In this document: positions 54,397 through 62,471 of the stretch, piece after piece | Layout: every line of letters begins with the position of its first letter | Numbering within the stretch: the stretch's first letter is position 1 | Assembly: GCA_030537855.1 (NCBI GenBank) | Contig: JAUNVD010000006.1 | Coordinates: forward strand, 1 to 64,000 | Reading direction: 5' to 3' | Origin: Tissierellia bacterium | GTDB lineage: Bacteria > Bacillota > Clostridia > Tissierellales > Peptoniphilaceae | DNA length: 64,000 nt | Translations under genes and position numbers: made by a program | The notes under the pieces: model-generated | What the model was told of the DNA's origin: nothing | Database searches by the model: none | What the model saw: the letters and a program-made list of their open reading frames with translations, nothing else

Positions 54397-54490
54397 AGGT
54401 TGAGTTAAGAATTATTTACATATTGGCTCAAAATTGTTATAATTTAATTAATAAGATGAAGAGCGAAAAGAATAAAAATGGAGGTGTATG

Positions 54491-55402
54491 ATGAAAAAAT
54501 TATTGGTTTTTATACTTATTTTAGGTTTATTCCTACCAAGTATATCCTTTGGTGCCATCATTATTGATGAAGATGACGAACCTTGTTTAGCTAAAGATTG
54601 TACCATTGATATATACTATAGAGATTTGGCTGGTAGGGATATTCATTCAGCAAAACATGTGAAAGGTTGCTCCGGGGAAACCTTAAATATTCAAGAATAT
54701 ATTATAGATATTGCAACATTTAAATATCATCATTCGGATCCAAGTTCTGTTACATTTGAGAGGGGCAGGACTCCTATGGTAGTGATTGTTTATGAAAAGG
54801 ACTATAAGCCACAACCTGATCCAAGTCCAACGCCAAACCCGACTCCTAACCCAACACCGAATCCCAGCCCTGACCCAAATCCCAATCCAAGTCCCAATCC
54901 GTCCCCAAATCCCACACCTGATCCAAGTCCTAATCCAAGCCCCAATCCAACACCTAACCCCACACCAAATCCAAGTCCTGGGAAAAAAGAGGGCGTGGAA
55001 ACCATTATCTTTAAAATCGGGGTTTCTTCCTATACTGTAGGGGATAAAAAGGTAGAAATGGATGGAAAATCCTATATTAAAAATGATCGCACCATGGTGC
55101 CTCTTCGTTATGTTTCTGAAGCTTTAGGTTTGGTAGTTTCTTATGATGAGATTACAAGAATAGCTACCTTCGAAAAAGAGGATTTTATAATGACATATTC
55201 TTTAGATCGGGAGGAGATGTTTATCAACGGAGAGTTATATCCTTTAGAAGTGATTCCAGAAAATATTGAGGGCAGATTATATGTACCTCTAGGTTTATTA
55301 GCAGATGCTATGGGGATGACTCGAGAAGACCCTCATTCCAATTATAATATTTCTTGGGATGGTGAAAAGAGATGGGTAATTATTACAAGGGAAATTTCAT
55401 AG
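54491..55402 (+). CDS. Secreted proline-rich protein with copper amine oxidase N-terminal-like domain
   Basis: A 303-residue exported protein: signal peptide (about 1-22, ending SFG), an 80-residue N-terminal domain with CLAKDCTIDIYYRD and a third Cys, then a 55-residue repeat of P-N-P-(S/T)-type units (residues about 113-170), and a C-terminal domain of the copper-amine-oxidase N-terminal (stalk) family (YIKNDRTMVPLRYVSEALGL...LYVPLGLLADAMG). The stalk domain is a wall or protein-binding module in clostridia, not an oxidase. ATG 54491 is better spaced from GGAGGTG than 54488. Confidence 0.85.
   Translation: MKKLLVFILILGLFLPSISFGAIIIDEDDEPCLAKDCTIDIYYRDLAGRDIHSAKHVKGCSGETLNIQEYIIDIATFKYHHSDPSSVTFERGRTPMVVIVYEKDYKPQPDPSPTPNPTPNPTPNPSPDPNPNPSPNPSPNPTPDPSPNPSPNPTPNPTPNPSPGKKEGVETIIFKIGVSSYTVGDKKVEMDGKSYIKNDRTMVPLRYVSEALGLVVSYDEITRIATFEKEDFIMTYSLDREEMFINGELYPLEVIPENIEGRLYVPLGLLADAMGMTREDPHSNYNISWDGEKRWVIITREIS
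54814..54985 (+). repeat. Proline-Asn/Ser/Thr coding repeat
   Basis: About 170 bp of degenerate 6- and 12-bp units (CCAAATCC, CCCAATCCAAG-like) encoding alternating PNPS/PNPT/PDPS steps, a wall-spanning linker. Codon variation between units shows it is old or under selection. Opposite frames are open only because of the repeat. Confidence 0.85.
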
Positions 55403-57509: not shown

Positions 57510-57989
57510 TTATAAATTTCTTATTTTTTCCATGATTACAGAATTTTTTTGTAAACTTCGAAATAATGGAATTCCTATGATAGAGACGATTATAATCTCT
57601 GAAAGAAAAATTTGAGCACCAATAAGAAGACCATTTACTGAAGTTCCAGTGATTTTAACAATGACGAGAGATATAATAACTCCATTAAAAATAGCAGGCA
57701 TAATAGAAGCTAGATAAATATTTTTCACTTTAGTCATAGCAAAGAGAGAAAGAAAGGTAGCTAATGAACCAAAGATAACATCAATAATCCCAAAGGGAGA
57801 TGCTATATTTGCCAATCCACAACCTAGAGTCAACCCAGGAATAAAAGCTGGATTATAATAAGCTAAAAGGGTGAGGGCTTCAGGAAATCGAAATTGAATG
57901 GGGCCATAAGAAAAGGGAAATGCTATTGTAAGAACAGCATAAATCCCAGCAATCACTGCTGTTTGTACTAGAAATTTCGTGTTCTTCAT
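57510..57989 (-). CDS. queT: QueT family queuosine-precursor transporter (ECF S-component)
   Basis: A 159-residue membrane protein with about five helices of the QueT family, the substrate-binding part of an ECF transporter for preQ1 or another queuosine precursor. FPFSYGPIQFRFPEALTLLAYYNPAFIPGLTLGCGLANI is the family core. The ECF ATPase and T-component are not nearby and are presumably shared. The leader carries a preQ1-I-type aptamer, a leader peptide and a terminator, which strongly supports the assignment. Confidence 0.93.
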   Translation of the reverse strand: MKNTKFLVQTAVIAGIYAVLTIAFPFSYGPIQFRFPEALTLLAYYNPAFIPGLTLGCGLANIASPFGIIDVIFGSLATFLSLFAMTKVKNIYLASIMPAIFNGVIISLVIVKITGTSVNGLLIGAQIFLSEIIIVSIIGIPLFRSLQKNSVIMEKIRNL

Positions 57990-58010
57990 AAGAGTAGTCC
58001 CTTCTGAATA

Positions 58011-58032
58011 TAAAAAAAGCCGTTTTCACGGC
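58011..58032 (-). terminator. Attenuator hairpin upstream of queT
   Basis: On the minus strand GCCGT-GAAA-ACGGC is followed by seven T. It lies between the preQ1 aptamer and the queT start, so it is a regulated transcription terminator. Confidence 0.88.
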
Positions 58033-58040
58033 AAATCCAT

Positions 58041-58064
58041 CTAGGTTTTAATATATACATACAT
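58041..58064 (-). CDS. Possible leader peptide MYVYIKT upstream of queT
   Basis: ATG-TAT-GTA-TAT-ATT-AAA-ACC-TAG on the minus strand, preceded at 4 bases by AAGGAAG, which is the 3' tail of the aptamer. Its stop codon lies 8 bases before the attenuator hairpin. Two of seven codons are UAU (Tyr), read by a queuosine-modified tRNA. Coding status is inferred only from the ribosome site and position. Confidence 0.45.
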   Translation of the reverse strand: MYVYIKT

Positions 58065-58069
58065 ATCAC

Positions 58070-58108
58070 TTCCTTGATTTTTTTAGAATGGGTGCCAAGA
58101 AACATTCC
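58070..58108 (-). promoter_or_regulatory. preQ1-I riboswitch aptamer of queT
   Basis: Read on the minus strand: P1 GAATG/CATTC (58107-58103/58090-58086), an 11-12-nt loop TTTCTTGGCACC, and an A-rich tail TAAAAAAATCAAGG. The loop's CTTG can pair with CAAG of the tail to make the pseudoknot P2. Layout, loop length and CACC/A-rich tail agree with the preQ1-I class, with P2 differing from the Bacillus version in a compensating way. The gene it precedes is a preQ1-pathway transporter. Confidence 0.87.
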
Positions 58109-58189
58109 TTTTTTAGTGTACGGGAATTATAATAAAAAAGCAAGAATTTTTTACAGTATTCTTTTTATTTTATGAAACATGTTATAATA

Positions 58190-59674: not shown

Positions 59675-59736
59675 AGAAACAATATAGTAGATATTATAAT
59701 TTAATAGAACATATAGACAAAGGTAGGGTGAAAATC

Positions 59737-60030
59737 TTGCTAGTACTTGTTACATATGATGTGGAAACGATTACAAAAGATGGTAGAAAAAGACTAAGGC
59801 AAGTTGCAAAATGTTGTGTAAATTATGGACAGCGTGTGCAAAATAGTGTCTTTGAATGTGTTGTCACACCTGCCCAACTAGCAGAAATGAAAATTAAGTT
59901 GTCGGAGCTTATCAATGATGAAAAGGATTCCTTACGAATCTATCATTTAGGAAAGAATTGGCAAATACGGGTAGAAAACATGGGGAAAAATGATACCTAT
60001 GATCCAGAACGAGATACCTTTGTATTTTAA
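59737..60030 (+). CDS. cas2: CRISPR-associated endonuclease Cas2 (type I-C)
   Basis: A 97-residue Cas2, which with Cas1 inserts new spacers into CRISPR arrays. It shows the ferredoxin-fold opening LVLVTYDVET and the I-C-like segment QRVQNSVFECVVTPAQLAEMK, then DSLRIYHLG. TTG 59737 with AGGGTG upstream places the start where Cas2 proteins usually begin; GTG 59728 is the alternative. It heads the operon, 11 bp before cas3, whereas in canonical I-C loci cas2 is last, beside the array. Confidence 0.93.
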   Translation: MLVLVTYDVETITKDGRKRLRQVAKCCVNYGQRVQNSVFECVVTPAQLAEMKIKLSELINDEKDSLRIYHLGKNWQIRVENMGKNDTYDPERDTFVF

Positions 60031-60041
60031 GGAGAGGACTT

Positions 60042-62471
60042 ATGATATTTTATGCAAGAAAAGATGATAGTGGGAAAAAACAGTTGTTAAAAGATCATAT
60101 TGAAGGAGTTCGCTCAAGATGTCTACTATCTGATGTGAAAGGATTTGACTCCACGTTAGAACTTATTGCTATCCTTCATGATATGGGGAAATACCAGGAA
60201 AAGTGGCAAGAGTATATGCTTGGAAGTTTGCAAAAAAAGGTTCCCCACTCTACCTTTGGGATGAAAGCTTTATTAGAAATGGTCAGTGGATATCTCAAGA
60301 AAAGGTCGGAAGCCTACCTTCTTCGAGATGTGGGGACCTATGTTGTGGGGGCCCATCATGGGCTTTATGATAATCTAACATTAGATGGGTATTGGAATTT
60401 AAAGGAAAAAATCAATCGGGTGGACAAAAGGAAACAGGACTATTTGGCAGGAAAGGAAGATTTTCTTAAGGAATGGGATGAGGATTATATACATACTTTA
60501 GTATCCAAATCCTTAGATGAAATGAAGGTTTATTTTGAATCTTTACCAAAAAAGACTTCGGATATGGATAAAAAAATTCATTTATTTTATCATGGTTTAT
60601 TAACGAGAATTCTTCTTTCTGTAGTAATGGATAGTGATTGGAGTGATGCCGCCAGCTTTTTTGATCCAAAAGAAAGGGAGTGGAAGGAGTATTTAAAGGA
60701 CTTTTCTTGGGAAGAGGCAATGGAAAATTTGGAAAAGAAATTAGCCACCTTTCAAGCGAATTCTAGGTTAAATGAATGTCGAAAAGAGATTTCAGATGAG
60801 TGTCTTGAAAGTTCTTCTAGAAATCATGGCATTTATAAATTAAATGTGCCAACTGGAGGGGCTAAAACTCTTGCATCGATGAGATTTGCACTACATCATG
60901 CTATAAAACATAAGAAAAAAAGGATTCTTTATCTTGCTCCATATAAAAGTATATTAATTCAAAATGCCAAAGAGTATAAAGATATTTTGTTCCAAGAAGA
61001 TGATAAAAGAGAGCTGTATATATTAGAGCATCATAGTGATATTATCTTAGAAAATATTTCTGATGAAGATTCTGAGTTTAAGAACCAAAAAGAACTTAAT
61101 GAGAAAAAAGCATATCTTATGGAAAATTGGGATGCACCTATTATTGTAACGACAGTGGTTCAGTTTTTAAACACCTTATTTTCAGGGAAAAAACAATCCA
61201 TCCGCCGGTTTCATAAATTAGCAGAGTCTGTAATTATTATCGATGAATTTCAAGCCATTCCAACAAATAGTATTGCTTTACTGAATATGGCATTAAATTT
61301 TCTTTCGAAATATTTTGGAGTAACGATTGTTTTAACTACAGCCACTCAACCACCTTTTGATATGAATATTGAAAGTATCCCAAAGTTAGAATATGAAAGA
61401 AATCCAGATCTTGTTAAAAATTATTCCAAAGATCCCGGTTTCTTACGAACTAAAATCATAGATCGTAGGGATGGCCTTGAAAGAAATGAAGAGGATATGG
61501 CAGATCTTATTGAAGAAAGAATGGACACCTTAGATTCTCTCCTTGTGATTGTAAATACAAGGGATGCGGCTTCGAGTATCTATCGTTCTGTAAAAAATCG
61601 AAATCCAAATTTTGAAATTCATTTGCTCAGTAATAATATGGTACCCGAACATCGTAGTGATGTCTTGAAGGATGTCAAAAAATTACTAAAAAATGAACGA
61701 ATTGTGTTAATTAGTACCCAGTTAATAGAGGCCGGGGTGGATATTTCATTCCAGGGGGTGATTCGTTCTTTAGCTGGACTGGACTCTATTGCCCAAGCTG
61801 GGGGAAGATGTAATCGAAATGGAGAAATGGATATAGGAGAAGTTTGGATTGTAACTTTATCTTCTAAGTTAGAAAAAACAAATAAAATTGATGATATTAA
61901 AATTGCCAAGGAGACGATGTCAGCTCTGCTAAATGATTTTCAAAAGAATCCGGAAAAATATGATGTTGATTTATTAAGTGAAAAAGCTCTTACCTTTTAT
62001 TTTAAAGAATATTATAAAAAAATTAATGAAAAGATAGAAGGTAGAATTAGAGATAAAAAAGAAATCTCCATAGTGGATTTACTTTCTTCAAACATCAATG
62101 GCTTGATGCAATATAAGGAAAACACAGGAAGAGGAGAATACCCAACGACGATTCCCCAAGGGTTTAAAACCGCTGGAGAATGGTATCAACCTATTGAGGA
62201 CAGGATGATTTCTGTTTTGGTAGATTATAAAGGAGGGAAAGATTTAATTGAAGAATTAAATAGTGCAGAAGGTATTTTTAAAGTAAAGTCTATACTTAGG
62301 AAGGCAAGTAGGTACTCGGTTCAAGTTCCTATATATAAATTTAATCAACTAAAAGAGGACGGAAAAATTTTTGAGGTTCATGAAGTTCCTGTTTTGGTAG
62401 AAGGTGTATATAAAAAAGATATAGGATTGGATATGGAAGAACCGGAAGAACCAAATAGTTTTATTTTATAG
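60042..62471 (+). CDS. cas3: CRISPR-associated helicase-nuclease Cas3 (type I-C)
   Basis: An 809-residue Cas3 that is recruited by Cascade to unwind and degrade target DNA. The N-terminal HD nuclease has LIAILHDMGKYQEKW (His46-Asp47), PHSTFGMKAL and VGAHHGLYD. The helicase has Walker A VPTGGAKT (about 269), DEFQAIP, TTATQPP, and the C-terminal STQLIEAGVDI and QAGGRCNRNG motifs. HD and helicase in one chain and the adjacent cas5-cas8c fit subtype I-C. AGGAGAGG precedes the ATG. Confidence 0.96.
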   Translation: MIFYARKDDSGKKQLLKDHIEGVRSRCLLSDVKGFDSTLELIAILHDMGKYQEKWQEYMLGSLQKKVPHSTFGMKALLEMVSGYLKKRSEAYLLRDVGTYVVGAHHGLYDNLTLDGYWNLKEKINRVDKRKQDYLAGKEDFLKEWDEDYIHTLVSKSLDEMKVYFESLPKKTSDMDKKIHLFYHGLLTRILLSVVMDSDWSDAASFFDPKEREWKEYLKDFSWEEAMENLEKKLATFQANSRLNECRKEISDECLESSSRNHGIYKLNVPTGGAKTLASMRFALHHAIKHKKKRILYLAPYKSILIQNAKEYKDILFQEDDKRELYILEHHSDIILENISDEDSEFKNQKELNEKKAYLMENWDAPIIVTTVVQFLNTLFSGKKQSIRRFHKLAESVIIIDEFQAIPTNSIALLNMALNFLSKYFGVTIVLTTATQPPFDMNIESIPKLEYERNPDLVKNYSKDPGFLRTKIIDRRDGLERNEEDMADLIEERMDTLDSLLVIVNTRDAASSIYRSVKNRNPNFEIHLLSNNMVPEHRSDVLKDVKKLLKNERIVLISTQLIEAGVDISFQGVIRSLAGLDSIAQAGGRCNRNGEMDIGEVWIVTLSSKLEKTNKIDDIKIAKETMSALLNDFQKNPEKYDVDLLSEKALTFYFKEYYKKINEKIEGRIRDKKEISIVDLLSSNINGLMQYKENTGRGEYPTTIPQGFKTAGEWYQPIEDRMISVLVDYKGGKDLIEELNSAEGIFKVKSILRKASRYSVQVPIYKFNQLKEDGKIFEVHEVPVLVEGVYKKDIGLDMEEPEEPNSFIL

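Follow-up and report, generated by a model that had tools for sequence, protein, structure and literature searches.

PreQ1-I riboswitches act either on a transcription terminator or on a ribosome site. The described members of this class (RF00522; types I-III, PMC11625349) share with the element reported here an H-type pseudoknot of about 35 nt with a short P1, a UU after the P1 5' strand, a C before the P1 3' strand, an A-rich L3, an association with queT or queL, and a 3' tail that pairs with the loop and runs into the ribosome site. In C. difficile, a preQ1 switch precedes a set of queuine-salvage genes that includes queL (queK-qrtT-queL, PMC11477304), but queL is the last gene there, and the homologues in that layout have no terminator hairpin within queL. 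Leader ORFs under riboswitches are already known as well (PMC11260477; with preQ1, PMC12519234), as are preQ1-I terminators. Translation of a riboswitch-controlled uORF is needed for expression of the downstream gene in the B12 riboswitch/ppe2 system of M. tuberculosis, which differs from the present case by relying on translational termination-reinitiation, by a uORF without an intrinsic terminator and by its ligand (PMC11260477). The Listeria lmo2683-lmo2684 locus combines a preQ1-like motif with a short uORF ending in an amber stop, but there preQ1 promotes readthrough of the stop, independently of tgt and without an attenuator (PMC12519234). Lastly, leader translation selects between termination and readthrough in the bmrCD attenuator of B. 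subtilis, whereas the gate in attenuators of this type is ribosome stalling and not ligand-controlled initiation (PMC4191407). Our searches of the open-access literature turned up no preQ1 switch coupled to a terminator within a translated frame, and no report of selection at synonymous sites for a queL terminator.

The locus described here was found in a stretch of 64,000 nucleotides of a Tissierellia bacterium, referred to as the window. Its genome (G000) is a draft of 130 contigs and the only one sampled for its genus. A preliminary description had read the queT leader as a preQ1-I-type aptamer whose tail is the ribosome site of a short peptide, MYVYIKT, with a ribosome parked on the UAG stop of this peptide deciding over a terminator. 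The features of the leader are listed in Table 1. Elsewhere in the window, cas2 and then cas3 (NCBIfam) are located on the plus strand at 59728-62471, just beyond a MATE gene, and Tandem Repeats Finder detected no repeat array near them. Positions 1-308 hold 2.1 tandem copies, 98% alike, of a 145-bp unit with a tRNA-like 3' end (GGTTCAAATCCCGTC), while ARAGORN called no tRNA in positions 1-1000. Furthermore, Pro-rich tandem repeats are present at 54821-54979 within a protein of 304 aa (54488-55402).

Table 1. Features of the queT leader in the window.
Feature	Position	Strand	Basis
TATAAT, likely -10 box	58126..58131	-	sequence; box not among the results of the consensus scan
G, possible extra G-U pair for P1	58108	-	
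P1 5' strand GAAUG	58103..58107	-	sequence and P1 covariation in relatives
Aptamer loop UUUCUUGGCACC	58091..58102	-	sequence and covariation in relatives
P2 5' strand CUUG, part of the aptamer loop	58099-58096	-	
P1 3' strand CAUUC	58086..58090	-	sequence and covariation in relatives
A-rich L3, between P1 3' strand and P2 3' strand	58085-58077	-	
P2 3' strand CAAG, first part of the ribosome site	58073..58076	-	covariation and model R1
Shine-Dalgarno-like AAGGAAG, overlapping P2	58069..58075	-	sequence; GGAAGUGAU signature common to queL operons
7-codon frame MYVYIKT-stop	58041..58064	-	sequence; within chance
24-codon frame MYILKPRWICRENGFFYIQKGLLL-stop, through the terminator	57986..58060	-	sequence; chance openness 23% by shuffles; layout shared with G038
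AUGGAUUU, AUGG able to pair with aptamer CCAU (antiterminator)	58033..58040	-	predicted pairing
Intrinsic terminator GCCGU-GAAA-ACGGC (58032-58019) and U7	58012..58032	-	
queT, 159 aa, S component of ECF transporter for queuosine precursors	57510..57989	-	Pfam PF06177, 2.5e-39

A preQ1-I-like aptamer of the Tissierellales

The pseudoknot that had been proposed 5' of queT was borne out. It spans 58107-58073 on the minus strand, and both P1 and the loop/tail helix P2 covary, as is to be expected of an H-type pseudoknot. Double changes were found in 4 of the 9 pairs (three in P1 and one in P2), none of 500 shuffles equalled the observed score, and controls with slid pairings scored far lower than the true pairs. 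An A-rich L3 and a queuosine gene (queT or queL) 3' of the aptamer, both characteristic of preQ1-I, are also present. By DNA pattern the motif was found in 62 of 130 genomes of the family, mostly at queT. A covariance model, R1, was built in this analysis from aligned Tissierellales-type aptamers, leaving out the 12-nt loops, which MAFFT had misplaced. This model matches the window at G000:C30:58071-58109 with an E-value of 4e-9, and its strict matches are almost confined to the Tissierellales: 113 of 249 genomes of this order match, as opposed to five genomes in the phylum sample outside the order, all of them weakly (E>=0.002).

The search with the preQ1-I family model RF00522, which the preliminary description had suggested as a check, gave no match at this leader. 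The window had no match at the gathering score or at E<=10, its own genome had none at the queT leader, and the relatives had none at E<=0.5; weak FtrA, gltS and similar matches were judged to be chance. The window-type aptamer differs from described preQ1-I in its loop, UUU(n)CUUGGnACC, and in having a C instead of A or U just 5' of the presumed specificity C. The published rule asks for UC (type I) or AC (types II and III) directly before the P1 3' strand (PMC11625349), whereas all aligned members have CC at this place (A-C-C-C-A); the specificity position itself is a C, as in preQ1-I. As judged by sequence comparison, the aptamer is a real, preQ1-I-like variant of Tissierellales type that would, by its shape and gene context, bind preQ1 and work like preQ1-I. 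Since the Rfam model does not cover this type, such switches go unannotated.

Leader frames between the aptamer and queT

The promoter of the leader remains uncertain, because there is no good -35 box near the TATAAT. The ribosome site provided by the aptamer tail and the terminator before queT are both present as they had been placed. One terminator was found in the leader against 0.2 expected, and its location between aptamer and gene is that of a transcription-terminating riboswitch. The 7-codon frame is likewise where it had been reported, with its ATG at 58064, four bases 3' of AAGGAAG, and its TAG stop at 58043-58041, followed by 8 bases and the terminator. However, this frame is not beyond chance, a closed ORF at its place being found in 7-15% of spacer shuffles.

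A second AUG, which the preliminary description had missed, overlaps the first one (ATGTATG). The 24-codon frame that starts there, at 58060, ends in a stop overlapping the queT start codon (AUGA; queT ATG at 57989), and its spacing to the ribosome site is 8 nt as compared to 4 for AUG 58064. It appears to be a better leader candidate than MYVYIKT. It should be noted that the openness of such frames is by itself weak evidence, with chance values by shuffles of 23% for the window (24 codons) and 28% for the relative G038 (30 codons). The leader frames stay open in the window, G038 and a further relative, G512, and the peptide sequence is not conserved among them.

The closest queT relative and the variety of platforms

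G038 has the closest queT (61% identity), which is the sister of the window's queT in the queT tree with a support of 97/85. Its leader is laid out in the same way, the frame of 30 codons stopping on the start of queT. The two leaders are near-identical from the aptamer through GGAAGUGAU and unalignable 3' of it, although the distance between the QueT proteins is about 1.1 changes per site. The exact layout occurs in these two lineages only, with one species sampled per genus. The idea that G038 is also the sister of the genome was rejected, as TGT identity is 69% for G038 and 83% for genus g32; since TGT ranks g32 above G038, the queT locus may have moved between lineages.

G038 retains the ATG of the proposed peptide, and G512 and the queL operons (see below) have a start that corresponds to it, but the UAG stop and the UAU codons do not recur in G038 or in any other relative examined. 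A ribosome parked on UAG is thus not backed even by the closest queT. The same absence leaves the suggested second sensing layer, in which the UAU codons would be decoded by queuosine-bearing tRNA-Tyr, unsupported, and at least two Tyr codons were present in 11% of composition-matched frames. In most terminator-type genera, ribosome site and AUG are both missing from that place, which is the loss of ATG, stop or frame next to a retained aptamer and terminator that the preliminary description had held against its own model.

In most direct switches, queT's own AUG is located 8-12 nt after CAAG. In the queT tree, the window and G038 stand next to direct translational switches that form a clade and have an AUG at the same offset, and the platform switched many times in this tree (10 changes). 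Among the other platforms, the leaders of family f19 (L120, L121, L128, L132, L135, L142, L165-L177) carry a U6-8 tract at once or a few bases after the aptamer, followed by AGUGACUCC...GGAGU before queT; there, base pairing is possible between the U-tract and the A-rich loop, and between CUCC and the ribosome site. L086-L095 (g20, g23) have, 3' of the terminator, an element that complements the 5' half of the aptamer (e.g. UUGCCAUGAACACUCC) and also carries a CUCC opposite the ribosome site, so that a dual control of transcription and translation is possible in these leaders.

An initiation site shared with queL operons

Other families of the order have the aptamer 5' of queL-queT operons in which queL starts at CAAGGGAGUGAU(n)AUG and, where the junction could be read across (L011, L015, L040), the queL stop overlaps the queT start. 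The first gene was assigned as queL (queuine lyase) because of a weak match to the RaSEA radical-SAM model (50.6 bits, cut-off 212) and an identity of about 60% to homologues that, in four other genomes, are located just 3' of preQ1-I switches matched by RF00522. In C. difficile, queL is likewise under a preQ1-I switch (PMC11477304). The initiation signature GGAAGUGAU was present in all 11 queL-queT operons and in none of 40 direct queT switches. GTGAT at most 9 nt from the tail was found in 11/11 queL operons and 3/3 leader-ORF leaders, as compared to 0/40 direct queT switches and 0/21 leaders of two other families; GTGAT is also present in g18/g31 terminator leaders, which lost the ribosome site and the AUG.

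G512 has lost most of queL, but a 37-codon frame from the QueL N-terminus was kept (0/400 shuffles), and in its leader this frame, with a U-tract, is followed by queT. The view that the window frame is itself a QueL remnant (LKPRW..FFYI) was not supported by a profile test (p=0.59). As the frame is not detectably QueL-like, this leaves the initiation signature and the layout as the sole evidence for its descent from queL. G038 resembles the Cys motif in another frame, which is suggestive at p=0.0025 before correction over 17 leaders. At first we took the leader AUG for the former start codon of queT, left from a translational switch, but the GTGAT signature points to queL. The leader may have originated from a queL start, as GTGAT indicates, or from a translational queT switch, as the queT tree indicates, both being compatible with the sequences; the initiation region of the window looks inherited from queL. 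Loss of queL within a genus was seen in g44, where L013 (G094) keeps aptamer-queL and L179 (G499) has aptamer-terminator-queT.

Apparent selection for a terminator hairpin within queL

A hairpin with a U-tract about 80-90 nt into the gene is present in each of the ten intact, aptamer-controlled queL genes that were tested, though these share ancestry. The energies of these hairpins range from -12.9 to -20.2 kcal/mol, while synonymous-codon shuffles average -3 to -7; the real energy was reached by 0/60 shuffles in nine genes and by 1/60 in one. The stems use two different registers, and therefore the hairpin itself seems to be selected. For comparison, we inspected 13 further queL homologues. 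The 12 without a Tissierellales-type aptamer have no hairpin or a weak one (-6.1 or weaker), and the queL of L195, which follows tandem related motifs, has a hairpin of -16.3 (shuffles 0/40). These motifs consist of a unit of about 35 nt, AGAGTTTTCTTGTCACCTACTTAAAAAACAAGATAT, that occurs three times in tandem immediately 5' of queL (L195:1380-1500; G329 contig 8), and apparently represent a triple preQ1-type aptamer.

Possible mechanisms of queT control

In our view there is slightly less than an even chance that the window carries a preQ1 attenuator of queT in which aptamer-gated translation of a leader decides over a terminator inside the leader frame. The Tissierellales-type pseudoknot would end in the ribosome site of this frame, with the terminator located within the frame. 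With preQ1 bound, the pseudoknot would be locked and AAGG hidden, so that the leader is not translated, the terminator forms and queT is off. Without preQ1, a ribosome starting at 58060 (or 58064) would move into or through the terminator arms and RNA polymerase would continue; the ribosome would end on the queT start codon (AUGA), where it could restart. Readthrough would thus depend on a ribosome in motion rather than on one halted at UAG, and likewise a translating ribosome would open the intragenic hairpin of queL. We infer the four steps of preQ1 binding, leader translation, readthrough and re-initiation; the sequences themselves show the conservation and covariation of the aptamer, the order of the elements, the conserved initiation signature, selection on synonymous sites in favour of the queL hairpin and, in G512, one clear case of queL eroded to a leader. 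The logic by which preQ1 hides a ribosome site and a terminator then forms fits the queL operons, G512, G038 and the window. Gating of the terminator by leader translation, as first suggested, is therefore partly supported by the relatives, albeit in an altered form that does not involve the MYVYIKT frame. Nevertheless, transcription in B. subtilis often runs ahead of the ribosomes (PMC7858274), which weakens ribosome-gated termination as an explanation, and the predicted spacer hairpin UGAUAUGU/AUAUAUUA with AGG/CCU, which masks the two AUGs as well as some of the ribosome site, weighs against efficient gating.

The leader could also work by direct attenuation without any ribosome, a serious rival that we regard as somewhat less likely. 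The preQ1-I switch of B. subtilis works by termination (PMC11625349). In the absence of preQ1, UGGCA-CCAU of the loop and P1 3' strand would form a duplex with AUGG-UGCC(G) at the terminator's left arm; once preQ1 is bound, the pseudoknot would block this pairing and the terminator would form, the leader frames being incidental relics. Indeed, the MFE fold of the leader includes the pairing of the loop and P1 3' strand with AUGG/UGCC, and near the decision point two competing folds differ by 1-1.6 kcal/mol, which is typical of a switch. The duplex has an energy of -12.2 kcal/mol, but the match reaches only p=0.11-0.13 relative to shuffled aptamers. In genus g23 the loop-arm match exceeded shuffles in all three leaders tested (p 0.01-0.04), but there is no aptamer/arm complementarity in G038 (p=0.72), as expected if the ribosome does the work, and aptamer/left-arm complementarity is absent from the queL operons. 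Moreover, direct attenuation leaves the retention of the GGAAGUGAU AUG in G038 unexplained. We consider it improbable that the frame has no function and is left over from an earlier translational switch or queL start, with aptamer and terminator hardly communicating or queT controlled at its own ribosome site. The neighbourhood of the direct translational clade in the queT tree, with its AUG offset of 8-12 nt, the 10 platform changes and the loss of ribosome site and AUG in other terminator-type genera would agree with such a remnant; on the other hand, GGAAGUGAU with its AUG is conserved between two highly diverged leaders, and the terminator stem and U7 are intact. The model of the preliminary description in its exact form, with the left arm covered by a ribosome that stops at UAG and with Q-tRNA-Tyr reading the UAU codons as an additional sensor, seems highly improbable to us. 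The geometry would let a ribosome on UAG cover the first bases of the arm, and tgt is present in the genome of the window, but the 7-codon frame lies within chance, its stop and UAU codons are absent from relatives, and the overlapping longer frame is better spaced from the ribosome site.

Implications for queuosine salvage genes

Returning to aptamer-gated leader translation, the window seems to join both modes of preQ1-I action via translation of a terminator-containing frame. It is possible, rather than probable, that a metabolite-gated ribosome serves as the antiterminator in a system that began as a selected terminator inside queL and decayed to the gene-less leaders of the window, G038 and G512. 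If this is true, a ligand-gated attenuator would have been built into a coding gene that later decayed into a leader. The queL/queT case also offers a test for ribosome protection of intrinsic terminators in Firmicutes, where the polymerase is thought to outrun the ribosome.
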